Below are positions 38,940 to 51,759 of a stretch of 64,000 nucleotides of DNA, one piece after another. Within the stretch, counting starts at the first letter, position 1; every line of letters starts with the position of its first letter. The position numbers and the translations under genes were made by a program. This stretch comes from Stappia indica. GTDB lineage: Bacteria > Pseudomonadota > Alphaproteobacteria > Rhizobiales > Stappiaceae. The notes under the pieces were generated by a model. The model was not told the DNA's origin. It did not search any database and saw only the letters and a program-made list of their open reading frames with translations. The stretch covers positions 186,001 through 250,000 of the forward strand of contig NZ_JAIVMG010000006.1 in NCBI RefSeq assembly GCF_020177335.1, read 5' to 3'.

Positions 38940-39845
38940 TCACTCGGCAAGCGGGTAGTCCGCAGCGTTCAGCACCCAGCCCGGCTTCTGGCTGAAGTCG
39001 GTCCGCGGCGGGCAGAAGATATCCACCAGCTGGTTGCGACCCGGATCGACCGCGCGGGACGTGTGGATGACCGGCGGCGGGATCACCAGTGCCGACGGGG
39101 CCGGAGCCGAGACGGTCAGGTCGTCGCGCCAGTCGGCCATGTCGGTGGTCCAGGGCCAACGGAGATGGTGCAGATAGGCGCCGTCGAGGGCCAGCGAGCA
39201 CTGCTCGAAATCATCGTGGTGATGCGGCGACATACGGGCCGTGTCGCGAGGTCCGTCGAGGGGATCAAGCATGTTCACCATGAAGGTGGTGCAACGGAAG
39301 ATCCTTCCGAACCGACCCGGCTCGGACGGCACATCGAGGCTATAGCTGCGGATCTTCCAGCCGCCAACCGGCTCGGGCCATGCGACAAAGGGCGGAATTT
39401 GCCGACGCGGCGTGTCATAGGCCGAGGCGTTCGGGCATTTCGCGACGAGATCCTCAGAGGCTGCCGTGAACAGCCGGATCAGGCTGCCACCCCGGGGTAG
39501 GATGACGCAGCTGTCGCCGGGCGGGACGAACGCGATGCTATGCCCCGGGATGGTCAGCGTTTCATCGCCAGCGGTGATTTCGGCGCTGTCCGTCGGATTG
39601 GGCAGGAGCACCACATATTCGTCCGGCTGACCCGCACGCACAAACCGCCCGCCGGGGTGCGCCCGCGTGTGGACGAGGACGAAATTGTTGCCGCGAAGAT
39701 AGTGGCTGTCGCCATCGGGGCCGGTTTCGTCAGGCTGCCCGCGATCGAATGCGGCGAATTGCTCCTCCGCGATCAATCCCGGTTCGGTTTGTGCTTTCGG
39801 CGCTGACTTTTGCAGGGCGGCTCGCGGGTCGTTCTTGTCGTACAT
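38940..39845 (-). CDS. Cupin-like protein of unknown function, 301 aa
   Basis: Two beta-rich halves are apparent: an N-terminal half with HPGGRFVRAGQPDEYVVLLPN and PGHSIAFVPPGDSCVILPRGG, and a C-terminal half with MSPHHHDDFEQCSLALDGAYLHHL, whose His-His-His...Glu pattern fits a cupin metal site. I do not recognise a named family. It may be a sugar- or hydroxyacid-isomerase or sensor. The start lies one base from the stop of the HpcH/HpaI aldolase gene upstream on the same strand, so the two are translationally linked and probably act in one step or on one substrate. Confidence 0.75.
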   Translation of the reverse strand: MYDKNDPRAALQKSAPKAQTEPGLIAEEQFAAFDRGQPDETGPDGDSHYLRGNNFVLVHTRAHPGGRFVRAGQPDEYVVLLPNPTDSAEITAGDETLTIPGHSIAFVPPGDSCVILPRGGSLIRLFTAASEDLVAKCPNASAYDTPRRQIPPFVAWPEPVGGWKIRSYSLDVPSEPGRFGRIFRCTTFMVNMLDPLDGPRDTARMSPHHHDDFEQCSLALDGAYLHHLRWPWTTDMADWRDDLTVSAPAPSALVIPPPVIHTSRAVDPGRNQLVDIFCPPRTDFSQKPGWVLNAADYPLAE

Positions 39846-39846
39846 G

Positions 39847-40644
39847 TCAGATCTCCTTCTTCATGGGCGATGCGAGTACCTGCTTCAGCCCGGACAAGCC
39901 CTTGAGAGCGGCGGCGCGCAGGAACGTCTGGTCGGAGGCGAGAATGAAGGCGCTTGCTCCGGCGGCGGCAAATTCAGCCGCGTCTTCCGCAGAGGCAACC
40001 ATCATGCACACCGGCTTGCCCGCGCGTTGCGCCGCCGCGATGATCCTGTCGGTGGCCTCCAGGACAGGCGGCGATCCGGCGCGGGACTGGCCGAAGGCCA
40101 CGGTCAGATCGCCGCGTCCGACGAAAATCCCGTCGAGACCTGGCGTGGCGATGATTTCGTCGATCACATTGAGCGCCGCCGGGTCCTCGATCATCGCAAT
40201 CACCGTCACGGCGCTGTCCTGCGCATCGAGATGGCCGGCAAGACTTGCCCCGCCGAAGGCCCCGGCCCGGGTGGTCGCCGAATATCCGCGCGATCCGCCG
40301 CGATAGCGCGCCGCCGCGACCACTGCCCGTGCCTTGGCGGGGCTGTCCACATGCGGCACCAGAATGCCCGTCGCGCCACAATCCAGCACCGAAAGGATCG
40401 CCGCCGGATCGGCGCTCTGGACCCGGACCAGTGCGGCCATCTCCGTGGCACGGCAGGCCAGGATCATCCGATCCGTGCTCTCGCGGTTGATCGGCGCATG
40501 TTCCTCATCGATCACGACGAAGTCGTATCCAAGGGCCCCCAGGATCTCCGCAGGCATGGTATGTGCGATCTTCAGGAAGCTGCCGCACAACCGCGTGCCC
40601 GCGAGGAAGCGCTGCCGGAACTCTTCCTCAACACTCATCTTCAT
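39847..40644 (-). CDS. HpcH/HpaI-family aldolase
   Basis: A 265-residue class II pyruvate aldolase-type TIM barrel. Visible signatures: GTRLCGSFLKI at the start, YDFVVIDEEHAPINRE (catalytic Asp/His region), GATGILVPHVDSPAKARAVVAAARY, metal-ligand Glu in AMIEDPAALNVIDEI and Asp in GIFVGRGDLTVAFG. The family cleaves 4-hydroxy-2-oxo acids to pyruvate plus an aldehyde. The start at 40644 follows GGGAG by ten bases; a GTG three bases earlier has better spacing. It shares a divergent promoter with the fumarase-like genes. Confidence 0.9.
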   Translation of the reverse strand: MKMSVEEEFRQRFLAGTRLCGSFLKIAHTMPAEILGALGYDFVVIDEEHAPINRESTDRMILACRATEMAALVRVQSADPAAILSVLDCGATGILVPHVDSPAKARAVVAAARYRGGSRGYSATTRAGAFGGASLAGHLDAQDSAVTVIAMIEDPAALNVIDEIIATPGLDGIFVGRGDLTVAFGQSRAGSPPVLEATDRIIAAAQRAGKPVCMMVASAEDAAEFAAAGASAFILASDQTFLRAAALKGLSGLKQVLASPMKKEI

Positions 40645-40895
40645 CACCGTTGGTCTCCCGATTCTGCCTGGCCCGTGATCGGGCTGTTGCCGGCCACTGC
40701 CACGGCAGGGCGGGGGCGGCAATCGCGCTCGACCATCGTTCCGTCAGCCGGAACAGACGCCGGCTTGTCGTCGTGCATTCCGCCAGCCGGAACGCTCTCG
40801 GATGCCGATTGTCGGGCGCAGACCGTGGAGATAGGAAATGGGCCAAAGCAATGGACGGGTCTGGGATGTCCATTGTGCCGGGAGGGGCCGTCTAT
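40645..40895. promoter_or_regulatory. Divergent promoter between aldolase and hydratase operons
   Basis: A 250-bp gap with two tandem dyads of identical geometry: GTTCCG-TCAGC-CGGAAC at 40738-40754 and ATTCCG-CCAGC-CGGAAC at 40777-40793, start to start 39 bp apart. The same 6-5-6 layout recurs before the IclR gene at 48682-48698, so these are candidate IclR operators. Confidence 0.65.
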
Positions 40896-41765
40896 ATGAG
40901 TATTGGCTATGAACAGTTCCGTGAGGTTGCGCGCGATCTGTATTCCCGTGCACTCAAGAAGATACCCGCTGATACCCATCGGGCGCTTGCTGCCGCAGAG
41001 CAGGTCGAAACCGACCCCAGGGCGCGGGACAATCTGCGTTTCCTCAGGGGGGTTGCCAAGACGACGGAACAGCAATCCCGGCATGCCTGCAGCGATGCCG
41101 GCTTCCCCACCTACACCGTGAAGATCGGTACGAATGTGACGCTGTCGGGAGACATCCGGCGTGGCTTCGTCGACGGTTTCGCGGAAATGGTCGACACCAT
41201 CGATCCGCCGATCCTGCAATTCATCACCCATCCGCTGACGCTGGAGCGCAGCTATAGCGGCAAGGACATGCCGATCCTCAGCTTCGACGTCATCGATGGG
41301 GCGGATTATGTCGAGGTGATCTGTTCGCCCAAGGCGCTCGGCTCCGGTCGGTGGGCCGCGCTGGAGATCTTCAGCTATCCGACCTTGGCTGACATCGAGG
41401 CCTATGTCATGGACTGCGTGATGAAGGCCGGGTCGCAACATTGCCCGCCGGTGGTCATTGGCGTCGGCATTGGCGGTTCGTTCGACAATGCGGCGAAGAT
41501 CGCCAAGTCAGCGGTGCTGCGCCCCATCGGCACGGCCCATCCCGAGCCGATGGTCGCCGAAATGGAGGAGCGCCTGCTGGCCGCCGTCAATGCGACGGGC
41601 TTCGGTCCGATGGGCACCGGCGGCGACACCACCGCGCTCGCGGTCCATGTGGACTATTCGGCCGGTCATGGCTTCGTCCCGGTGGCCGTTTGCTTCAACT
41701 GCTGGATCAATCGGCGCACGGTCGCCCGAATCTCGGATGCTGGGGAGATCACCCATGTCGAGTGA
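40896..41765 (+). CDS. Class I fumarase-like hydratase, alpha subunit (TtdA/fumarase N-terminal type)
   Basis: A 289-residue iron-sulfur hydro-lyase alpha subunit. Candidate 4Fe-4S Cys ligands: ACSDAGFPTYTVKIG (about 64), QHCPPVVIGVGIGGSFDNAA (about 184) and VAVCFNCWINRR (about 267). Family enzymes (fumarase, L-tartrate dehydratase, mesaconase) add or remove water across a dicarboxylate double bond. GGAGGGG precedes the ATG. The stop overlaps the beta-subunit start by 11 bp. Because a housekeeping fumarase would not sit in this cluster, a pathway-specific substrate is likely. Confidence 0.88.
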   Translation: MSIGYEQFREVARDLYSRALKKIPADTHRALAAAEQVETDPRARDNLRFLRGVAKTTEQQSRHACSDAGFPTYTVKIGTNVTLSGDIRRGFVDGFAEMVDTIDPPILQFITHPLTLERSYSGKDMPILSFDVIDGADYVEVICSPKALGSGRWAALEIFSYPTLADIEAYVMDCVMKAGSQHCPPVVIGVGIGGSFDNAAKIAKSAVLRPIGTAHPEPMVAEMEERLLAAVNATGFGPMGTGGDTTALAVHVDYSAGHGFVPVAVCFNCWINRRTVARISDAGEITHVE

Positions 41766-42390
41766 CCGGGGCGAGGGCGGGGCGACGGCGGTACAACTGC
41801 CGATGACGCCTGACGTGGCTCGCGGCCTGCGCCTTGGGCAACGGGTTCGGCTGCACGGTGAAATGACCGTCACCGTCGGTTGGGTCACGCATCAGCGCAT
41901 GTTCGCGGTGGCCCGGGGCGATGGTGTGTTGCCGGTTCCCCTGAACAACTCGTTTCTGCACATGGGAACCTGCTGCTACGAAGCTGGCGGCCGGATATTG
42001 CCGCACTACGTGAACCCGACGACCTCGACCCGCTTCGATGCCTATCTGCCGACGCTGGTGCGGCGGTTCTCATTGACGGCAATCGGCGGCAAGGGGGGCG
42101 TCGGACCGGATGTGGTGGCCGCGCTGAAGGACGTGGGCGGTGTCTATTTCAGCATGCCGGGAGGGGCGGCGCCGGCGCTGACCAGCGGCGTTGTCGAACG
42201 GGTTCGTACCGGATGGGACGATCTGATCGAGCAGTTCCGCCTGTCCACCTTCCGTGTTGACGGGTTCGGGCCGCTGATCGTCGGCGTCGATGCCCATGGC
42301 AATAGCATCTACGAACAATTGGCCATCAGAGCCAACGAACGCCTGCCGGCAATCCTGCAGGAACTGGAACGGCGGCGCCAGCAATCCTGA
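41755..42390 (+). CDS. Class I fumarase-like hydratase, beta subunit (TtdB type)
   Basis: A 211-residue C-terminal-type fumarase domain. After LPMTPDVARGLRLGQRVRLHGEMTVTVGWVTHQRMFA comes the segment LLPHYVNPTTSTRFDAYLPTLVRRF-like with TTSTR-type substrate contacts, then LTAIGGKGGVGPDVVAALKDVGGVYFSMPGGAAPAL, characteristic of the beta half (the usual GKGG...Y...GGAA pattern). It completes the active site with the alpha subunit. The ATG lies within the end of the alpha gene, so expression is coupled. Confidence 0.88.
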   Translation: MSSDRGEGGATAVQLPMTPDVARGLRLGQRVRLHGEMTVTVGWVTHQRMFAVARGDGVLPVPLNNSFLHMGTCCYEAGGRILPHYVNPTTSTRFDAYLPTLVRRFSLTAIGGKGGVGPDVVAALKDVGGVYFSMPGGAAPALTSGVVERVRTGWDDLIEQFRLSTFRVDGFGPLIVGVDAHGNSIYEQLAIRANERLPAILQELERRRQQS

Positions 42391-42438: not shown

Positions 42439-43557
42439 ATGAAACCTTATGCTTTGCTCGCCGCGACGGCGCTCGCATCGTTCGCCTGGGGAAGTATCGG
42501 CGTGGCGGAGGAGGCCAAGCTTCCGGCCACCGTGTCGATGACCAGCTACGACGTCGGCTCCGCCGGCTATTCCCAGGCCGTGGCGATCGGCAAGGCCATC
42601 AGCGACGCCTATGGCGTCAGCCTTCGGGTCCTGCCGACGACCTCGGACGTGGCACGCACCATTCCGGTTCGCCAAGGGCGGGTCGATTTCGCACTGGTCG
42701 GCTCCGAAGCCTACAACGCCATGGAAGGGACCGAGGCCTTCTCCGCGCAGGAGTTGGGGCCGCAGGACCTTCAGCTTCTTGCCGGCGCGAACTCGGAGAA
42801 CTGCTTCACATTGGCGCTGCAGGGGGATGGCGGCATCAAATCCGTCGCCGATCTGAAGGGAAAGCGGATCGGCTGGGTGGTCAGCTCGCCGGCGCTGCAA
42901 AACAATGTGGCGGGTTTCCTGGCTTTCGGCGGACTGACCTGGGATGACGTCGAAAAGGTCGATGTCGGCAGCTTTGCCGCCTCCTGGGAAGCTTTCTTCA
43001 ACGGTCAGGTCGATGCCGTCACGACACTGACCACGACGACCTTCGCGACCCAGGCGGTGGCGTCTCCTTCCGGGCTCGCCTGGTTGCCATTGCCGAAGGA
43101 TGACAAGGAAGGCTGGACCCGGCTTCAAGCTCTGAAGCCACAGTTCTCTCCCCGCACCGCGACAATGGGGCCGAACATCTCCGCCGAAAAGCCGCTTGAG
43201 TGCGCGGGCTTCCCCTTTCCAGTTCTGGCGGCCTATGCCGACAAGGATGCGGAGGTGGTCTACAACATGACCAAGGCGCTTCAGGATCAGTTCCAGGCCT
43301 ATGAGAAATCCGAGCCTGGGCTGAACGGCTTTGCCGGGGACCGGCAGAATTTCCAGTGGGTGCTCCCGTACCATGCCGGTGCGGTGCGCTACTGGAAGGA
43401 AACGGGAAAATGGACCGAGGCCGACGAGGCACACAATCAGAAGCTTCTGCGGCGCCAGCAGGTACTGCTGGATGCATGGGCGGGCCTGCCGGCAGGCGAA
43501 CGAGCGCAGAAGTGGGCAGACACGCGGGCGAAGGCCCTGGCCGACGCCGGCTTCTGA
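42439..43557 (+). CDS. TAXI-family TRAP substrate-binding protein
   Basis: A 372-residue exported protein: signal peptide to about residue 23, then TVSMTSYDVGSAGYSQAVAIGKAISDAYGVSLRVLPTTSDVARTIPVRQGRVDFALVGSEAYNAMEG, which is the TAXI signature region, and DLKGKRIGWVVSSPALQNNVAGFL. TAXI proteins work with fused DctQM permeases. The only such permease here is on the opposite strand at 45610-47595, so the pair is split between convergent operons. A clear terminator follows. Confidence 0.9.
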   Translation: MKPYALLAATALASFAWGSIGVAEEAKLPATVSMTSYDVGSAGYSQAVAIGKAISDAYGVSLRVLPTTSDVARTIPVRQGRVDFALVGSEAYNAMEGTEAFSAQELGPQDLQLLAGANSENCFTLALQGDGGIKSVADLKGKRIGWVVSSPALQNNVAGFLAFGGLTWDDVEKVDVGSFAASWEAFFNGQVDAVTTLTTTTFATQAVASPSGLAWLPLPKDDKEGWTRLQALKPQFSPRTATMGPNISAEKPLECAGFPFPVLAAYADKDAEVVYNMTKALQDQFQAYEKSEPGLNGFAGDRQNFQWVLPYHAGAVRYWKETGKWTEADEAHNQKLLRRQQVLLDAWAGLPAGERAQKWADTRAKALADAGF

Positions 43558-43648: not shown

Positions 43649-44557
43649 TCAATTCCGGGCAACTTGCAGCAATCGGCAAACCTCGGCAATCATGTCCCGA
43701 CGCATGTCGGCGGTCATTGCGGCGGCATGCGGCTGCAGAACGGTATTCGTGAGTTGCAGGAAACGTGGGTCGATGTCGGGCTCGTTGTCGAACACGTCGA
43801 GCCCCGCACCGGCAATACCCCCGGTTTCCAGCGCCGCCAGCAGGGCTTCTTCATCAACGACAGAGCCGCGCGAGACGTTGATCAGAACGCCCCCGGCACC
43901 GAGGGCGGAAAGCACCGCGGCGGAGATCATGTGCCGCGTCTCAGCGCCGCCGGGACTGCAGACCACCAGGAAATCGGCCCAACGCGCCAGATTCAGCAGA
44001 TCGGGTTCGAAGACGAACGGCGCCTCGCGCTTTTCCCGGGGGCCGGTGTAGCGCACCGAAAGGCCGGCCCCTTGCAGGCGTTCGGCGACCGTCCGGCCGA
44101 TCCGCCCGAGACCGACGACGCCGGCCTTCTTGCCCGCGACCCGCATCGAGGGCGCCATCCGCCCCTTCTGCCACTGGCCGGACCGGACGAAGGCATCTCC
44201 GGCCACAAGACCGCGCGCGACCGCATAAAGCAGCGCCACCGCCATATCCGCGGTGTCGGTCGTCACCACATCGGGTGTATGGCGCAACGCGATGCCGGAC
44301 CGTTCCAGCCCGGCAAGGTCGAACCGATCCTGTCCCGCACCGCAACTGACGATCACCTCCAGGTCCGGCAGGCGCGCCAGCAGATCCTCCGGCGCACCGC
44401 CCATAGCGGTGGTCAGCGCGTGGGTCAGACCACGGGCCCGCTCGGGGGCGAGAGACGCCACCTCTTCCGGCGAAAGCAGCGTGAATTCGGCTTCGAGCAC
44501 ATTTCGTATGTCGGCTGGCACAGGTCCCAGTAACGGCAGTGTCTTTCTTGCGGTCAT
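43649..44557 (-). CDS. D-2-hydroxyacid dehydrogenase (NAD-binding)
   Basis: A 302-residue D-isomer-specific 2-hydroxyacid dehydrogenase. Rossmann motif VVGLGRIGRTV (about 147), catalytic Arg in LINVSRGSVVDEEAL (about 228), Glu in DVFDNEPDID (about 259) and His in LQPHAAAMT (about 276). It reversibly reduces a 2-oxo acid (glyoxylate, hydroxypyruvate or similar) to a D-2-hydroxy acid. It is the last gene of a minus-strand operon with the quinone-oxidoreductase-like enzyme, a permease and a metal hydrolase. Confidence 0.9.
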   Translation of the reverse strand: MTARKTLPLLGPVPADIRNVLEAEFTLLSPEEVASLAPERARGLTHALTTAMGGAPEDLLARLPDLEVIVSCGAGQDRFDLAGLERSGIALRHTPDVVTTDTADMAVALLYAVARGLVAGDAFVRSGQWQKGRMAPSMRVAGKKAGVVGLGRIGRTVAERLQGAGLSVRYTGPREKREAPFVFEPDLLNLARWADFLVVCSPGGAETRHMISAAVLSALGAGGVLINVSRGSVVDEEALLAALETGGIAGAGLDVFDNEPDIDPRFLQLTNTVLQPHAAAMTADMRRDMIAEVCRLLQVARN

Positions 44558-44578: not shown

Positions 44579-45613
44579 TCAGGCGCCTTCGAGCGGCCTT
44601 TTCGCCGCCTCATCCAGGCACAGGACCACCTTGCCGATCTGCTCGTTGGCATCGAGGATGCGATGGGCCTCGGCAACCTCGCTGAACGGAAGCACGGCGT
44701 GCAGGTGGGTGGCGATCTCCCCAGCCTCAATCAGGGGCCACACCTCACGGCGCAGGTCATCGGCAAGTCGCCCCTTGCGCTCCGCAGACTGCGGCCGAAT
44801 GGTCGATCCGGTCAGCGTCTGGCGCCGCCGCACCAGCTGCCGCAGGTTGACCTCTGCCTGTGCGCCAAGGTGGCTGGCGATCAGAACCAGACGACCATCA
44901 TAGGCCAGAAGATCGAGCTGCCGCTGGGTGTAAGGCCCAGCCTGGGCATCAAGGATAAGGTCGATCCCCCGCTCACCGACGCGTTTGCGCAAGATACCGT
45001 CCCAGTCGCCTCTGTAGTCGAGGGCCTCGCTCGCGCCGAGGTCACGGCACACCTGCCGTTTCTCCTCGGTTCCGGCGGTGGCGTAGACGACTGCGTCCCG
45101 CAGCTTGCGGGCGATCTGGATGCCGGCCATGCCGACGCCGCTGGTGCCGCCCTGGATCAGCAGGCTCTCGCCGTGCCCCAGATGCCCAAGCACCATGATG
45201 TTGTTCCAGGCGGTGAAAAAGACCTCCGGCAAGGAGGCGGCTTCGACAAGGTTCAGGCCGCGTGGCACCGGCAGGCACTGCTGCCAGGGGACCGCGCAAA
45301 ATTCGGCATAGCCCCCGCCATTGGCAAGCGCGCAGACCGGCTGGCCGATGGAAAGGCCCAGGACCTCATCGCCGACCGCCTCAATCCAGCCGGCCACATC
45401 AAGCCCCGGAAGGTCCGACGCGCCGGGCGGTGCTGGATAAAGGCCCCGGCGCTGCTGGATGTCCGGCCGGTTCACGGCTGCCGCAGCAACCCGAATTAGA
45501 ACCTCGCCCGGGGCAGGTGTGGGGATGGGACGATCGGCGAAGCGCAGGACCTCCGGTCCGCCCGCTCCATTGAATTCGACAACCCGCATGGTGTTCGGTG
45601 TTCCTTTGTTCAT
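44579..45613 (-). CDS. Zinc-independent MDR oxidoreductase (NADPH:quinone oxidoreductase-like)
   Basis: A 344-residue medium-chain reductase: MRVVEFNGAGGPEVLRFADRPIPTPAPGEVLIRV, NRPDIQQRRGLYP, a Rossmann region SLLIQGGTSGVGMAGIQIAR (about 150), and YDGRLVLIASHLGAQ. No structural-zinc Cys cluster is seen. It is close by eye to PIG3/quinone-oxidoreductase-type proteins that reduce enoyl or quinone groups with NADPH. ATG 45613 overlaps the permease stop (ATGA); a Met at 45589 begins the conserved region and may be the real start. A much longer open frame running to 47179 is only read-through of the permease in another frame. Confidence 0.88.
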   Translation of the reverse strand: MNKGTPNTMRVVEFNGAGGPEVLRFADRPIPTPAPGEVLIRVAAAAVNRPDIQQRRGLYPAPPGASDLPGLDVAGWIEAVGDEVLGLSIGQPVCALANGGGYAEFCAVPWQQCLPVPRGLNLVEAASLPEVFFTAWNNIMVLGHLGHGESLLIQGGTSGVGMAGIQIARKLRDAVVYATAGTEEKRQVCRDLGASEALDYRGDWDGILRKRVGERGIDLILDAQAGPYTQRQLDLLAYDGRLVLIASHLGAQAEVNLRQLVRRRQTLTGSTIRPQSAERKGRLADDLRREVWPLIEAGEIATHLHAVLPFSEVAEAHRILDANEQIGKVVLCLDEAAKRPLEGA

Positions 45614-47595
45614 TGTGCGGCAAGCCGCAGTTCGGCGCGGTTCTGCATGGCAGCGAAGACGAGAAGCGGTATGGACAGTGCCGCCGCGAGCAGTACCAGA
45701 TCGAAATCCGACCAGCCCGGCACGATGGTTGCCGGAAGGGCAATCAGGACGGCGGCAATCAGCAGAAGCAGGCGCAGCAGCCAGGCGTACCGGCGCTTCG
45801 GAAACAGGGCGCCGATACCCGGAACATACCCTTGCACAGCCCAGGCGAAGAGAGCGATGCCGATGAGCGCCAGGGCCACCGAGATGATCGTGTCCTGTAC
45901 GGTTCCCTGCAGAACCAGCGCTGGCTGGAAGGCGAAGAAGAACGGAATGAGGTAGATCACGCTGCCGATCCGCATGGCCTCGAAGCCGGTCTTCATGGGC
46001 GGTGTCCGGGCGATGCTGGCCGCCGCGAAGGCCCCAAGCGCCACCGGCGGCGTGATGAATGACAGCATGCCCCAGTAGAAGATGAACATATGCACTGCCA
46101 TCTGGTTCAGGCCGACCTGGACCAATGCCGGAGCAAGCAGGATCGCCAGGAAGATATAGGCGGCTGTCGAGGTCATGCCGATCCCCAGGATCAATCCGGT
46201 CGCAGCCCCCATCGCCAGCAGCATCAGGGCAGAGCCATCGGCAAGCCGAAGGAGGTCGTTGACGAGCGTTGCGGCAACCCCGGTCATCGACAGGGCGCCG
46301 ACGATCATGCCGACAGCGGCGAGAATCGCCACCAGATTGGCAAAGAGACTGGCCAGCGTGTCGATGAACTTGCCAAGCTCCGCCCAGCCCCACCGGTGCT
46401 TGCGCGACAGAAGCTGGTTGAGAACGATCAGCATTGGCGTCGCGTAATAGGGCGCCAACGCTTCTCGCCGCATGACGAGCAGCATGTAGATCAGGACCGC
46501 GAAGACCAGAAGGTAGTACCAGCCTTCGCGGAAGGTCTGCTTCAGATTTGGCAGGTCCGCCTTGGCCATGCCGGTCAACCGCTCCTTGCCGGCCATCGCG
46601 TCGATCTGCATGAACAGACCGAAGAAATAAAGGAAGGAGGGAATGACCGCCGCCAACGCCACTTCGGCGTAAGGGACGTTGAGGAAGCTGGCCATGACGA
46701 AGGCGGTCGCCCCCATCACCGGCGGCATCAAGGTGCCGCCCGTTGAGGCGCAGGTCTCGACGCCGGCGGCGAAGGTGCCGCGAATGCCGATCTTCTTCAT
46801 GGCCGGAATGGTCATGGTGCCGGTGGTCAGCACATTGGTGATGACCGATCCGCTCATGGAGCCCATCAGACCGCTGGAGAAGATCGCGACCTTTGCCGGG
46901 CCGCCGCGCACCCCGCCGAGCAGGGCGAAGGACAGGTTCATGAAGAACGCCCCCGCGCCGGTATGCTGCAAGGCTGCGCCGAAGATGATGAAGCCGATGA
47001 TCAGGTTGCCGAAAGTCCGCAGCGGAATGCCGAGTATGCTCTCCGAGCCCATGGCGTGATAGGCCGCCGTGAAACTGGCCGGCGAGTGAAACCCGGAGAT
47101 CGCCTGCGGCAGGAATTGCGTGTAGAGCGGGAACAGGGACATCACCGCGACGATGGCTGCAAGCGGCCAGCCGCCGCATCGACGCCCCGCCTCCAGCACC
47201 AGGCCCCAGAGGGCGAAGGACACCCAGACGGCGGTCTGCGGCGGCGCCATTTCCCAGCCAAGCAGCGAGATATCCATCGCATGGGCGAAGAAATATCCGC
47301 AGACCAGAAGGGACATGGTCGCCAACGTCCAGTCATACCAGGGAACATGCGGTTGCCGTCGCGATTGGCTCAGCGGATAAGCCAGAAAGACAATCGCCAG
47401 GGCGATGCCCAGGATGGCGTAGTAGAACCGCATGTCCATGAGCGTCACGCCAACCAGAAAGCCCAGATTGAAGGTCTGGTTGACCGCCAGCACGATGATG
47501 AGAACGGTTGCGGCCCGCACCAGAAACCTGGCCATGCTGGCAAGTGAGCGAGGGCCAGCTTCGAACTGGGCTTCCTCTTGTGCGTGATCGTTCAT
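45610..47595 (-). CDS. Fused TRAP permease (DctQM, 4TM/12TM type)
   Basis: A 661-residue polytopic permease. The first four to five helices form a DctQ-like part (LVRAATVLIIVLAVNQTFNLGFLVGVTL onward). The rest is a DctM-like part with SGLMGSMSGSVITNVLTTGTMTIPAMKKIG, GGTLMPPVMGATAFVMA and FIFYWGMLSFITPPVALGAFAAASIA. Fusions of this type serve TAXI binding proteins, so it should import the ligand of the TAXI protein encoded on the opposite strand. GGGAGGG precedes the Met at 47595. Confidence 0.92.
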   Translation of the reverse strand: MNDHAQEEAQFEAGPRSLASMARFLVRAATVLIIVLAVNQTFNLGFLVGVTLMDMRFYYAILGIALAIVFLAYPLSQSRRQPHVPWYDWTLATMSLLVCGYFFAHAMDISLLGWEMAPPQTAVWVSFALWGLVLEAGRRCGGWPLAAIVAVMSLFPLYTQFLPQAISGFHSPASFTAAYHAMGSESILGIPLRTFGNLIIGFIIFGAALQHTGAGAFFMNLSFALLGGVRGGPAKVAIFSSGLMGSMSGSVITNVLTTGTMTIPAMKKIGIRGTFAAGVETCASTGGTLMPPVMGATAFVMASFLNVPYAEVALAAVIPSFLYFFGLFMQIDAMAGKERLTGMAKADLPNLKQTFREGWYYLLVFAVLIYMLLVMRREALAPYYATPMLIVLNQLLSRKHRWGWAELGKFIDTLASLFANLVAILAAVGMIVGALSMTGVAATLVNDLLRLADGSALMLLAMGAATGLILGIGMTSTAAYIFLAILLAPALVQVGLNQMAVHMFIFYWGMLSFITPPVALGAFAAASIARTPPMKTGFEAMRIGSVIYLIPFFFAFQPALVLQGTVQDTIISVALALIGIALFAWAVQGYVPGIGALFPKRRYAWLLRLLLLIAAVLIALPATIVPGWSDFDLVLLAAALSIPLLVFAAMQNRAELRLAAQ

Positions 47596-47642
47596 GGTTC
47601 CCTCCCGAAAGCCAATCTTGTTGTGCAGTCTGTCGTGCAATC

Positions 47643-48581
47643 TCAGTCGACGGGAATGCCGACCAATCGGGCAGGGTTGTCGCGCACCAGGCTGGAGACC
47701 TCGTCTTCCGTGAAGTCGAGCGCAAGACAAAGCTTGATCGCCTGACGCAGGCCTTCCACCGGCGTCGGATTGTCGATTTGTCCGAGATCGGATCCGATCG
47801 ACGAATGTTCCACCCCTGCTGCCCGAATGTGTTCCCCGAGAAGCTCCGGCTCGAACACATTGAATCGACTATCGATATAAAGGCATGCGGATTGTTCTAC
47901 CACCGCTCCGAACTCGGCCAGCTCGCGGATGTCGTCATAGGTGAAATGCAGGCCGTACATCGGATGGTTGATCAGCAGTTTCCGGACGCCGCGGGCCTTT
48001 GCCTCCTCGAACAGCTTCCAGATCTCCCAGACGTGCAGATGTCCGGAAGACAGGATTGCGTCCGCCTCCGCGATGGAATCCAGGATTTCCTTGACCGGAT
48101 CGATGATGCCGCCGCGTTCGTCCACGACCGTAAGGGCCAAGGGCGGGCGCAGCTGCACATTGCTGGCAAGCCGGCTCTTGCGGGCGGAGCTGCGTATATG
48201 GTTCGCCGAATGGGCGGTCGGCATCCAGATGAGCTTCGCACCGTGCTTGAGTTGGGAATCGACCACAGAAGGATTGAACCCGCCGGACGAGTTGTTGAGC
48301 ACGAGGCCGCCGAACATGGAAACGCCGGTGTCGCCCAACATGCGCTCCATCATCGGAATGAACGGGGCGACGGAATAATGATGGTCCTTGAACAGGACCG
48401 CCCGCATGCCGGCCGCCGCCGCCTGCTCGACCGCCTGCGCATGATCGATTTGCCGGGGCATGATCGACGGACCGGAATGGACATGCAAATCGACGGCGCC
48501 CTGCATCAGACGGTCAACCACCACGTCATCGATCTCGGCAATCATGCTGCGCATTTTCGCGCGATTTTGCTCCGCACTCAC
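47643..48581 (-). CDS. DUF6282-type metal-dependent hydrolase-like protein
   Basis: A 312-residue protein with DLHVHSGPSIMPRQID near residue 31, followed by a second His region VLFKDHHYS, SSGHLHVWEIWKLFEEAKARGVRKLLINHPMYG and a late Asp in SSIGSDLGQ. This His/Asp set is that of an amidohydrolase/PHP-like metal site, and the overall form matches DUF6282 as I remember it. The reaction is not established. The GTG start is supported by GAGGG seven bases upstream. It heads the minus-strand operon and is divergent from the IclR gene, sharing the operator region. Confidence 0.75.
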   Translation of the reverse strand: MSAEQNRAKMRSMIAEIDDVVVDRLMQGAVDLHVHSGPSIMPRQIDHAQAVEQAAAAGMRAVLFKDHHYSVAPFIPMMERMLGDTGVSMFGGLVLNNSSGGFNPSVVDSQLKHGAKLIWMPTAHSANHIRSSARKSRLASNVQLRPPLALTVVDERGGIIDPVKEILDSIAEADAILSSGHLHVWEIWKLFEEAKARGVRKLLINHPMYGLHFTYDDIRELAEFGAVVEQSACLYIDSRFNVFEPELLGEHIRAAGVEHSSIGSDLGQIDNPTPVEGLRQAIKLCLALDFTEDEVSSLVRDNPARLVGIPVD

Positions 48582-48727: not shown

Positions 48728-49543
48728 ATGACAATTCGTTCCATCCAGCGGGCGCTCCAGGTTCTTCAGGCGTTGAACTGCCAGCCATCCTCGACCATTG
48801 CGGCGCTTCACCAGACGACGGGATTGCCGAAGCCAACGCTGGTGCGCATTTTGCGGACCTTCGAAGCCGATGGCTACGTTGAGAATGATTCCCGCCAGGG
48901 CGGCTATGTGCTGACCGCGCGGGTGGTCTCATTGAGCGCCGGTTTCCATAGCGATCCGCTGGTTGTGGAGGCCGGCCGGGCATGGGCCATTGCCCTGACC
49001 CGCAAGCACCGATGGCCCATCTCGATCGCCCTGCCGGATACCGATGCGGTGGTTGTGAGGTTCTCTACCGTGCCCGACAGCGCGATGTCGCCATTTCACA
49101 AGACGGTCAACATGCGGCTGGCGTGGCTGACCCGTGCGCTCGGTCTTGGGTATTTCGCCTTTGCGCCTGACGATGAAAGGGAACTCATCCTGTCGATGTT
49201 GCGCAACGACCAGCAGGCGGAAAACGACCTGGCGCGGCAACCGCAAATGCTGGATCGTCTGATTTCCGGCATTCGGGCGCGCGGCTTTGCCACCCGCGCC
49301 GAATATGTCGAGCCGCGCAATTCCGACACGATTGCCGTGCCGATTTTCGGGCAGGGCGGGCGCGTGCTGGCAAGTCTCGGCATCACCTATTTTCGCTCCG
49401 CCTTCCCGTCGGCGACAGAAGCCTGCGGCCGCTATGTTCCGATCCTGCAGGCCGCTTCACGGGAAATCTCCGAAGAGGTCGCACGCATCCTGTGTGCCGT
49501 TCATGGCAAGTCACCGGACACGCCGCCGGACCTGCCCAATTAG
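48728..49543 (+). CDS. IclR family transcriptional regulator
   Basis: A 271-residue regulator. The N-terminal winged HTH (IRSIQRALQVLQALNCQPSSTIAALHQTTGLPKPTLVRILRTFEADGYV) is followed by an IclR effector domain with SIALPDTDAVVVRFSTVPDS, ALGLGYFAFAPDDE and the Arg-Gly-Phe-Ala stretch GIRARGFATRAEYVEP, ending in SLGITYFRSAFPSATEACGRYVPILQAASREISEE. IclR proteins control aromatic, glyoxylate and sugar-acid catabolism. Here it is adjacent to and divergent from the catabolic operon, and precedes the lyase-like gene. Confidence 0.92.
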   Translation: MTIRSIQRALQVLQALNCQPSSTIAALHQTTGLPKPTLVRILRTFEADGYVENDSRQGGYVLTARVVSLSAGFHSDPLVVEAGRAWAIALTRKHRWPISIALPDTDAVVVRFSTVPDSAMSPFHKTVNMRLAWLTRALGLGYFAFAPDDERELILSMLRNDQQAENDLARQPQMLDRLISGIRARGFATRAEYVEPRNSDTIAVPIFGQGGRVLASLGITYFRSAFPSATEACGRYVPILQAASREISEEVARILCAVHGKSPDTPPDLPN

Positions 49544-49695: not shown

Positions 49696-51177
49696 ATGAA
49701 CGGTACGATCAAGATCAGCGGTTTTGACCTGACGCCTCGCCAAGTCGCTTTCGTCGCAAAGTCGGGCGGCAAGGTGTCACTCTCGAAGGAGAGCCGCACC
49801 CGCATGGAGGCGGCAAGGCGGGTGGTGGAAGACGCGGTCACACGCGGCATCCCCGTCTATGGACTGACCACAAGCGTTGGAGCCAAGACCGGGACCCGTC
49901 TCGATCCGGCGCAGATCATCGAGTTCAACCGGCGCCTGATCCTGACGCATAATTTCGGCCACGGCCCCCTCGCTTCTCATGAGGAGGTACGGGCGATGAT
50001 GCTCGTGCTCCTCAATTCCATGGCCAGTGGACGCCTGGGTGTTCGGCCGCTGCTCGCCGATATCCTGGTCGGTGCGTTGAACGATGATCGCCATGTCGAG
50101 GTTCATGCCTGGGGCTCGATGGGGGAGAGCGACATGTCGCCGATCTCCGATCTGGCCTTGGCGCTTTATGCCGATGTCGAACTTGCTGCCGGTGAGGCGT
50201 TGGCGCTGGTCAATTCCAGCGCCCTGTCGACCGGAACCGCGGCCCTGGCGATCGAAGATCTGTCGGACCTGCTGAAATTTGCAAGCCTTGTCGGCGCGCT
50301 GAGCATGGAAGGCTTTGCTGCCAATCCATCGCCTCTTTCCGAAGTGGCCCTCCGATCGCGGCCGCTCAGGGGCCTGCAACGTCATGGACGGCAGATCCGG
50401 CACTACCTTGAGGGAAGCTACCTCTTCAACGACGGAGGGCCACGGTCCCTGCAGGATCCGTTGTGCTTCCGCTCACTGTCCATGCTGCACGGCGCCGCCA
50501 GCGACAATCTTGCGTTTGCGCTGGATCAGATCACGACCGAACTGAACGCCAGTCAGGGCAATCCGGTGGTTTCGGTTGAAGAAAACATGCTGGTTTCGGT
50601 CGCCAATTTCGACATGGTGTCGCTGGCGATGGCGCTCGACGTCGCGCGGCTCGGTTTCTCTCCGGTCGTGACGAGCTCGACCGAGCGGCTCGCGAAGATG
50701 GTTGATTCCTTCTGGTCGGGATTGTGCACTGGTCTCATTGAAGATGATGGCGTTGGCGCACCTGGCTTCAACGGCCTGGCGCAGTTCCACAAGTCGATCA
50801 CATCGGAAGCAAGATTGCTGACCGGGCCGGTCGTCGGCGAATTGCCAAGTTCCAGCCATTCGAACGGCAATCTTGATCGGGTCAGCATGGCGGGTCTCGC
50901 CGCGCGCCGAACCCGAGATCTCGCCATCCTCTGCAGGTCGATTTTCGCGATGGAATTGCAGGTCGCCGCCCAGGCTTCCGAGCTGCGCGGGCGTCTTCCC
51001 CTTGGCAGGACAACGGGCAAGCTCCTGGACTTCGTGCGTGAGGCAGTCCCGTTTGCAGCACCAGGAGACCGGGCGCCGCATGTCGCCCCCCTGTTGGACA
51101 GTCTCCAGGCGCGTTCGAAGGAGTTGGACGGGCTGCTTGCCTGGGAGGCGGAAGATGGGTCTCAGGGCACCGGATGA
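49696..51177 (+). CDS. Aromatic amino acid/histidine ammonia-lyase homologue with altered MIO triad
   Basis: A 493-residue HAL/PAL-fold protein. It keeps the N-terminal YGLTTSVGAKTG loop (Tyr55, like Tyr53 of P. putida HAL) and the helix-rich body with QDPLCFRSLSMLHGA and NASQGNPVVS. Two things are unusual. The GSVGASGDLAP segment that makes the MIO electrophile is GSMGESDMSP here (Glu144-Ser145-Asp146). The residues matching HAL Tyr280 and Glu414 appear to be Leu in QDPLCFR and GNLDRVSM. It may catalyse a different reaction or be non-catalytic. The gene follows IclR by 152 bp; AGGG lies eight bases before the ATG. Homology is certain; the chemistry is not. Confidence 0.88.
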   Translation: MNGTIKISGFDLTPRQVAFVAKSGGKVSLSKESRTRMEAARRVVEDAVTRGIPVYGLTTSVGAKTGTRLDPAQIIEFNRRLILTHNFGHGPLASHEEVRAMMLVLLNSMASGRLGVRPLLADILVGALNDDRHVEVHAWGSMGESDMSPISDLALALYADVELAAGEALALVNSSALSTGTAALAIEDLSDLLKFASLVGALSMEGFAANPSPLSEVALRSRPLRGLQRHGRQIRHYLEGSYLFNDGGPRSLQDPLCFRSLSMLHGAASDNLAFALDQITTELNASQGNPVVSVEENMLVSVANFDMVSLAMALDVARLGFSPVVTSSTERLAKMVDSFWSGLCTGLIEDDGVGAPGFNGLAQFHKSITSEARLLTGPVVGELPSSSHSNGNLDRVSMAGLAARRTRDLAILCRSIFAMELQVAAQASELRGRLPLGRTTGKLLDFVREAVPFAAPGDRAPHVAPLLDSLQARSKELDGLLAWEAEDGSQGTG

Positions 51178-51685
51178 TAGGCGGTCGCGTCCACTTCCAC
51201 CCCGGCCATATCGGCCAAACCAACAGTCAGAGGCTCCGTCGCGCTGGATAAAGCCTGGGGGCAACGTCATCCATCATCTCGTTCATGCGGTCGATTTCCG
51301 CCTTGAACAGTGCCTTCAGGCTTTCCTGGCGTGTGGTCTTCAAGTCCCGTTGAAACCTCATTTCCGCGAGCATGGTGTTCTGGCGGCGCGCCATGAACCG
51401 AGCCCGGTGGTGATCCGATTGTCTCAGGCTCAATGACAGCTTCCGGTTAAGGTCGGATTGAGGAAGCGCTACTGGAAGGCGAGGGCGCCAATACCAGACA
51501 TTTCCGCGGCGCAGAAGATTTTGATCGTCATGTCGACGCGCCATAGCCCAATATCCTTGAGCCGGACGGAGCTTTTGGGCGCCACGTCCGGGGACCAGTT
51601 TTGGGCATCAGTTGGGTGAAATGACTGAGAAAACAGGCTTGACAACCCGAGTATCTCAACAACATCAATGACTTGAAAGAGGGTT
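51178..51685. other. Island-edge region: integrase remnant and flanks
   Basis: About 500 bp between the lyase gene and tRNA-Gln. It contains a truncated integrase frame (51227-51544) and about 140 bp of unremarkable sequence next to the tRNA 3' end. No repeat of the tRNA 3' end was found by eye in the large gaps of this window. Confidence 0.55.
51227..51544 (-). pseudogene. Truncated tyrosine recombinase/integrase (N-terminal domain only)
   Basis: A 105-residue frame: RRHDDQNLLRRGNVWYWRPRLPVALPQ, then LNRKLSLSLRQSDHHRARFMARRQNTMLAEM. This matches the N-terminal arm-binding (DUF6538-like) region of phage-type integrases, which are normally about 350-500 residues. The core-binding and catalytic domains (R-H-R-Y) are missing. 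It starts 141 bp from the 3' end of tRNA-Gln, the classic integrase/attachment-site arrangement, so it is probably the scar of an integrated element. Confidence 0.7.
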
Positions 51686-51759
51686 TGGCTGGGGAACCTG
51701 GATTCGAACCAGGACTAACGGAGTCAGAGTCCGCGGGTCTACCGTTAACCTATTCCCCA
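51686..51759 (-). tRNA. tRNA-Gln (anticodon CTG)
   Basis: A 74-nt tRNA on the minus strand. TGGGGAA pairs with TTCCCCA to form the acceptor stem, GCCA follows as discriminator plus encoded CCA, the T-arm has GGTTCGAATCC, and the anticodon stem CGGA/TCCG closes a CTCTGAC loop with anticodon CTG (codon CAG). Its 3' end faces the truncated integrase. Confidence 0.93.

Follow-up and report, generated by a model that had tools for sequence, protein, structure and literature searches.

A conserved clade of ammonia-lyase homologues with a shortened 4-methylideneimidazole-5-one loop, represented in Stappia indica

Can a protein of the ammonia-lyase fold that has lost its cofactor-forming tripeptide still act as a lyase, and on what kind of substrate? 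The question is raised by P0001, encoded in a stretch of 64,000 nucleotides of Stappia indica (contig NZ_JAIVMG010000006.1, positions 186,001 to 250,000; hereafter the window), in which the loop that carries Ala-Ser-Gly (ASG), the source of the 4-methylideneimidazole-5-one (MIO) electrophile, was found to contain Glu-Ser-Asp.

The MIO loop of P0001 and its clade

P0001 was found to contain the PF00221 domain and the fold of the aromatic amino acid lyases, with a PF00221 score of 318.7 bits in the Pfam search, far over the Pfam cut-off, and it remained below the NCBIfam cut-offs for histidine (HAL), phenylalanine (PAL) and tyrosine (TAL) ammonia-lyases and for the aminomutases. The segment GSMGESDMSP fell on the MIO loop in the profile alignment, with the codons of Glu144-Ser145-Asp146 at 50125-50133; an earlier sequence-only reading had recognised this motif but had placed it at 50123..50152, a start 10 bases late (the true span is 50113-50142). 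In the HMMER alignment with the HAL of Pseudomonas putida, gsmges.dmspis of P0001 was set against gsvgasgdlapla, with a one-residue gap in P0001.

Relatives were collected from a set of 84,980 species genomes by a profile of three rows, which in practice amounted to two short peptide patterns, so that members may be missing. The scan gave 70 loci, of which 26, three fragments among them, were assigned by our own grouping to the clade of P0001 (the window clade). The alignment behind the column table contained 69 rows, namely 25 of the window clade, 18 of the side that includes ergothionase, 24 canonical rows, and L031 and L007, which stood outside all three groups. The clade rows comprised the full-length scan rows, a plasmid copy of Pseudorhodobacter turbinis and P0001 itself, were mutually 49-95% identical and had a tree support of 100/100. 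The fragment L006 was dropped before the counts, and L071 (loop unreadable) and rows shorter than 430 aa (L029, L032, L064, L075, L077) were excluded from both table and tree.

The loop stretch was found to contain 15 residues in the window clade (25/25), on the ergothionase side (18/18) and in both L031 and L007, and 16 residues in the canonical rows (24/24; ASGD in 21, SSGD in 3), and the column of Asp146 was that of the Asp following ASG in the canonical rows (24/24). By the difference in length and the position of Asp146 the change is therefore a deletion of one residue, and not the exchange of Ala-Ser-Gly for Glu-Ser-Asp, with Gly turned into Asp, that the sequence-only reading had described. 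The family alignment and the search for further Glu-Ser-Asp members that it had proposed gave conserved GS[MIT]G[EQ]SDM in the window clade (25/25; Q in 21, E in 4), with [EQ]S-D throughout where Ala/Ser/Thr-Ser-Gly would be expected and with Ser145 invariant.

A single ASG tripeptide was found in P0001 at residues 110-112, about 34 residues upstream of the MIO site, and was present in 19 of the 25 clade rows; at these columns it was absent from the eight most frequent strings of the canonical group and from those of the ergothionase side. Since it lies so far from the site, and since the canonical rows have ASGD or SSGD in the loop proper, it is not a displaced MIO motif. An intact ASG elsewhere in the protein had been named beforehand as evidence that would count against loss of the cofactor; this one does not, because no alignment places residues 110-112 on the MIO site. 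The prediction that the window-clade proteins form no MIO, which from the alignments is very probable, was strengthened because the Gly is lost and because the middle loop residue of the ergothionase side was Gly or Ala in 12 of the 18 rows.

Active-site residues and the relation to ergothionase

Active-site positions are named by the HAL numbers (Tyr53 of the lid, His83, Gln277, Tyr280, Arg283, Phe329, Glu414); HAL Arg283, equivalent to Arg259 of P0001, binds the substrate carboxylate. P0001 and HutH were found to be alike in the PF00221 fold, the lid Tyr and the equivalents of His83, Gln277, Arg283 and Phe329, whereas P0001 lacked ASG at the MIO site and contained Leu256 and Leu393 in place of the catalytic Tyr280 and Glu414; unlike hutH, the clade genes had no urocanase nearby. 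Arg259 and Asp254 were conserved without exception in the three groups (67 rows), and Tyr55, Gln253 and Phe305 in nearly all rows. Ser60, Trp139, Asn359, His365, Lys366, Arg395 and the inserted Ser387-His388 were invariant in the window clade and missing from the other two groups. The spacing from the loop Asp to the Asn173 column was 27 residues in the window clade (25/25), 50-51 in 17 of the 18 ergothionase-side rows and 50-60 in the canonical rows; the value of 30 for the Treponema denticola ergothionase is an artefact of a row without 20 residues. The short loop combined with Leu or Ile at the Tyr280 site was found in 25/25 rows of the window clade, 18/18 of the ergothionase side and 0/24 of the canonical group. 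The two Leu positions and the retained lid Tyr that the sequence-only reading had assigned by eye were thus borne out across the clade (Table 1). Its view that the MIO-forming motif is lost and the function changed also stands: a full-length protein with conserved [EQ]SD and linked active-site changes in 25 rows speaks for a change of function and is not a product of decay.

The uniqueness implied in that reading was not upheld, since the ergothionase of T. denticola (PDB 6s7j/6s7q), which PMC13405746 describes as an MIO-less trimethylamine lyase of the same fold, already has both the shortened loop and Leu in place of Tyr280. It was found to be the best PDB match of P0001 by sequence (HMMER profile) and by Foldseek, and also the first, though tied, by VIA. 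The window clade and ergothionase have in common the fold, the loop short of one residue and the Leu at the HAL Tyr280 site, and P0001 also shares with it the Tyr/Gln/Arg/Phe core and a His at the HAL His83 site. PAL, TAL and the 2,3-aminomutases, which contain MIO (PMC3903478), gave a weaker sequence match to P0001.

Judged from alignment, tree and gene context, however, the window clade is not ergothionase. P0001 and the T. denticola ergothionase were 28% identical, and one column contained K in 18/18 ergothionase-side rows but Q (17) or L (8) in the window clade, whereas the Glu414 column contained E in 18/18 and L (17) or M (8), respectively. In our count of the 6s7j sequence these two ergothionase-side residues are Lys 383 and Glu 411, which have a catalytic role there. 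After the loop the window clade lacked some 23 residues relative to the ergothionase side (27 against 50-51), and the Ser387-His388 insertion was absent on the ergothionase side; the Glu414 change, the insertion and the partner genes were specific to the window clade. In the tree the window, ergothionase and canonical sides were separate, with T. denticola ergothionase paired with L034 (100/94) on another branch (100/89) apart from the window clade (100/100); the ergothionase stands on a long branch, and the tree tool warns about such joins. The tree is unrooted, without an outgroup, and a single loss of MIO would hold only if the root lay on the canonical branch. MIO-free lyase chemistry is already known in this fold from ergothionase, and the window clade adds a conserved branch to it.

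Proposed function and the alternatives

P0001 is probably a catalytic lyase. We favour, with a probability of about 0.55, an MIO-free C-N lyase that expels a good amine leaving group from a carboxylated substrate, on a branch apart from ergothionase. The substrate carboxylate would be held by Arg259, the beta proton would be taken by a base (the lid Tyr55, or the His or Lys of the clade), and the departing amine would require no activation by MIO, being a good leaving group through a quaternary or tertiary state or for some other reason, as trimethylamine is in ergothionase. By analogy the leaving amine would be quaternary, and the invariant Trp139 beside the loop would suit a cation. The fumarase-type hydratase and the HpaI-type aldolase encoded nearby would then convert the unsaturated acid to products at the level of pyruvate. 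Histidine and ergothioneine are both improbable as the substrate. Opines, chelators, sugar amino acids and the betaines of aspartate, tyrosine, tryptophan and proline were weighed as candidates without finding support, and a literature search on iminodisuccinate and ethylenediaminedisuccinate lyases as a substrate lead did not name the window clade.

A more far-reaching form of this proposal, which we put forward tentatively and with somewhat less confidence, is a separate, undescribed class of MIO-independent C-N lyases with a catalytic set of their own, His365, Lys366 and His388, replacing the Lys/Glu of the ergothionase side and the Tyr280/Glu414 of HAL. Such enzymes would act on a non-imidazole amine or betaine and open a previously unmapped hydratase-cupin-HpaI-aldolase route on islands and plasmids of soil and marine Proteobacteria.

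The partner genes were counted with 21 query proteins by tblastn, the module queries coming from clade loci and the OpuAC queries from ergothionase-side loci. The 28 clade loci, which included the fragments L029, L032 and L064 and the short L012 and L021, whose absences mean little, were found to contain the aldolase in 17, IclR in 17, the cupin in 16, Amidohydro_2 in 11, a Bug-type binding protein in 10 and a flavin reductase in 9, followed by fumarase alpha (8) and beta (8), DUF6282 (7), quinone oxidoreductase (7), CaiB-type CoA-transferase (7) and a PotD-type protein (4). The regulator and the catabolic genes at these loci agree with the regulated catabolic island proposed by the sequence-only reading. 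OpuAC was found in 8 and urocanase in 1 of the 17 ergothionase-side loci, where none of the clade module was found except three weak quinone oxidoreductase matches (30-35%); the 23 canonical loci contained urocanase in 6 and none of the clade module. The three groups thus tend toward three different contexts, the cupin/HpaI-aldolase module being found in most window-clade loci and OpuAC on the ergothionase side.

The OpuAC assignment was confirmed by Pfam in 4/4 loci scanned. Among the quaternary-amine binding proteins of this type is EgtU, which is specific for ergothioneine (PMC9732360). EgtU belongs to the same Pfam family. The ergothionase-side lyases that share loci with OpuAC betaine-type ATP-binding cassette (ABC) binding proteins were L034, L036, L040, L047, L048, L054, L060 and L063, with OpuAC directly adjacent in L036, L047 and L048, and their hosts include Sporosarcina, Brenneria and Ancylobacter.

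Several results weigh against the favoured C-N lyase. A broader profile that included canonical rows ranked the HAL 7tqr over 6s7j. Neither OpuAC nor urocanase was found by tblastn in the 28 clade loci (0/28 each), so gene context does not link the leaving group of this clade to trimethylamine. The aldolase was missing from 11 of the 28 loci, some of them short, and 7 of these 11 contained the CoA-transferase, so that the clade may be served by more than one pathway. The cupin-aldolase-DUF6282 module was also found without the lyase in six plasmid stretches (Parasedimentitalea, Mameliella, Paracoccus, Pseudosulfitobacter, Microvirga and Roseomonas), picked among 20 of 27 cupin-matching records; tblastn found no P0001 relative in five of the six, and in the Mameliella stretch the sole match was a HutH of 28% identity that has ASG and lies in a hut operon. 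The lyase may therefore be an optional entry step and not the core of the module. Against a quaternary leaving amine in particular, the fumarase-type hydratase and the HpaI-type aldolase would fit a downstream product that is a small oxo or dicarboxylic acid.

The strongest competitor, possible but less probable than the favoured reading, is an MIO-free elimination in which a polar polycarboxylate loses ammonia, a secondary amine or a non-nitrogen group, a chemistry nearer to aspartase or fumarase than to ergothionase; against it, the nearest characterised MIO-less relative expels trimethylamine. That P0001 is itself an ergothionase, acting as a trimethylamine lyase on ergothioneine or ergothioneine sulfonate, is improbable: the top PDB sequence and Foldseek match, the common short loop and Leu, and the urocanase gene beside L007, which is remotely related and falls on the same side of the tree as P0001, would fit, but all 25 clade rows have other residues where Lys and Glu never vary among the ergothionase-side rows, the identity is low, ergothionase stands on the other tree branch, and urocanase and OpuAC are absent from the clade loci. 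Equally little can be said for a non-catalytic pseudoenzyme with a binding or regulatory role, which the sequence-only reading had entertained and for which the analysis gave no support; the loss of the MIO, Tyr280 and Glu414 equivalents and the adjoining IclR regulator are offset by the retained core and the invariant clade-specific residues in 25 rows, and ergothionase shows catalysis to be compatible with loss of MIO. An ordinary MIO enzyme building its cofactor from Glu-Ser-Asp can practically be dismissed, in spite of the invariant Ser145 (25/25), since the loop is one residue short, the Gly is gone, the Asp is the canonical post-ASG Asp, the ergothionase-side middle residue is mostly incapable of forming MIO, and the only ASG lies away from the site.

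Beyond the ergothionase side, the fold has thus given at least one more conserved clade that is very probably free of MIO and has other residues in the active site. The clade offers a natural experiment on the capacity of the fold for elimination without its electrophile and on the leaving groups that this requires, and it marks an as yet unassigned catabolic pathway. Its sequences, far above the Pfam cut-off, could be mistaken for histidine ammonia-lyases though they are very probably MIO-free.

Neighbourhood and distribution

The features of the window are collected in Table 1. The cupin-like protein had no Pfam or NCBIfam match at 0.001, and two of its homologues had none at 0.1; its profile matched a PDB cupin (E 0.0008). 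The closest PDB entries of the HpaI-type aldolase were sugar-acid and hydroxy-oxo-acid aldolases. Of 87 genomes of the family, that of the window alone contained the DUF6282 neighbour, and a literature search on DUF6282 gave no paper. The cupin, HpaI-type aldolase and DUF6282 together form a candidate catabolic module in the plasmid stretches of Roseobacter-type bacteria, Paracoccus, Microvirga and Roseomonas.

Table 1. Coordinates in the window of the lyase, its active-site residues and the neighbouring genes
Feature	Position	Strand	Basis or occurrence
MIO-less ammonia-lyase homologue P0001, 493 aa, PF00221	49696..51177	+	start set by orthologue alignment
GSMGESDMSP, shortened MIO loop, residues 140-149	50113..50142	+	translation, alignment
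Tyr55, lid Tyr, kept	49858..49860	+	Y in window clade 25/25
Leu256 at HAL Tyr280 site	50461..50463	+	L in window clade 25/25; Y in canonical 24/24
Arg259 at HAL Arg283 site, kept	50470..50472	+	R in 25/25, 18/18, 24/24
His365-Lys366, invariant in window clade, absent from the two other groups	50788..50793	+	column table
Ser387-His388, two-residue insertion, window clade only	50854..50859	+	gap in the others, 18/18 and 24/24
Leu393 at HAL Glu414 site	50872..50874	+	window clade L 17, M 8; E in canonical 24/24
Cupin-like protein without Pfam family	38940..39845	-	cupin in 16/28 clade loci
HpcH/HpaI-type aldolase	39847..40647	-	Pfam/NCBIfam; aldolase in 17/28 clade loci
Fumarase/TtdA-type hydratase alpha subunit, start approximate	40896..41765	+	55% to annotated Bosea copy
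Fumarase/TtdB-type hydratase beta subunit, start approximate	41755..42390	+	41% to annotated Paraburkholderia copy
TAXI-family tripartite ATP-independent periplasmic (TRAP) solute-binding protein	42439..43557	+	NCBIfam
D-2-hydroxyacid dehydrogenase family protein	43649..44557	-	Pfam
Zinc-binding-dehydrogenase/quinone-oxidoreductase family protein, start approximate	44579..45568	-	tblastn query match
TRAP transporter fused permease, start approximate	45610..47598	-	Pfam, NCBIfam
DUF6282 protein	47643..48581	-	Pfam; in 7/28 clade loci
IclR-family regulator, upstream neighbour of lyase	48728..49543	+	Pfam, NCBIfam; in 17/28 clade loci
DUF6538 protein, short fragment, probably phage-type integrase	51227..51544	-	domain search
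tRNA-Gln (CTG), likely island border	51686..51759	-	tRNA prediction

At E 1e-60 none of 87 genomes of the window's family contained the lyase except its own; at E 1e-55 the 397 genomes of the order gave one fragment besides it, and at E 1e-45 the 398 genomes of the phylum gave one distant relative besides it. This rarity, together with the tRNA-Gln and the DUF6538 fragment beside the lyase, gives the region the look of an acquired island; DUF6538 is linked to integrases. The G+C content of the region was not strikingly different, and a search of the window for a repeat of the tRNA-Gln end matched only the tRNA itself. No lyase relatives were found in the viral contigs searched.

The clade hosts were mostly Bosea, Rhizobium, Paraburkholderia and Advenella, and also included Mesorhizobium, Hydrogenophaga and one Methylobacterium metagenome-assembled genome (MAG). 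A separate full-length PF00221 protein, judged by the match (E <= 2.2e-173), was found in 18 of 20 clade genomes, a subset of those behind the 26 loci, the exceptions being the two Advenella genomes. The Stappia genome contained a separate HutH with ASG, and the clade lyase is not the housekeeping HAL. The literature covered on MIO-less relatives beyond ergothionase, which left most subscription journals outside, did not name the window clade.

Truncated lyase copies were found in L006, L032 (Bosea lupini) and L064, with L006 and L032 aligning only from query residue 295 and thus being remnants. In L071, a PF00221 relative, the MIO loop was short of more residues (GSVGY followed by Leu), possibly through an assembly error. 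The MIO-less relative of an Acidimicrobiales MAG (L031:1312-3900) was found to adjoin a TauD-type dioxygenase, with ABC transporter genes nearby by eye. The lyase of L007 (L007:32-2955), from a genome of the same taxonomic class and on the window's side of the tree, was found to contain a GAS-D loop without MIO and to lie directly after a urocanase gene, which makes it a candidate for ergothioneine or hercynine catabolism.
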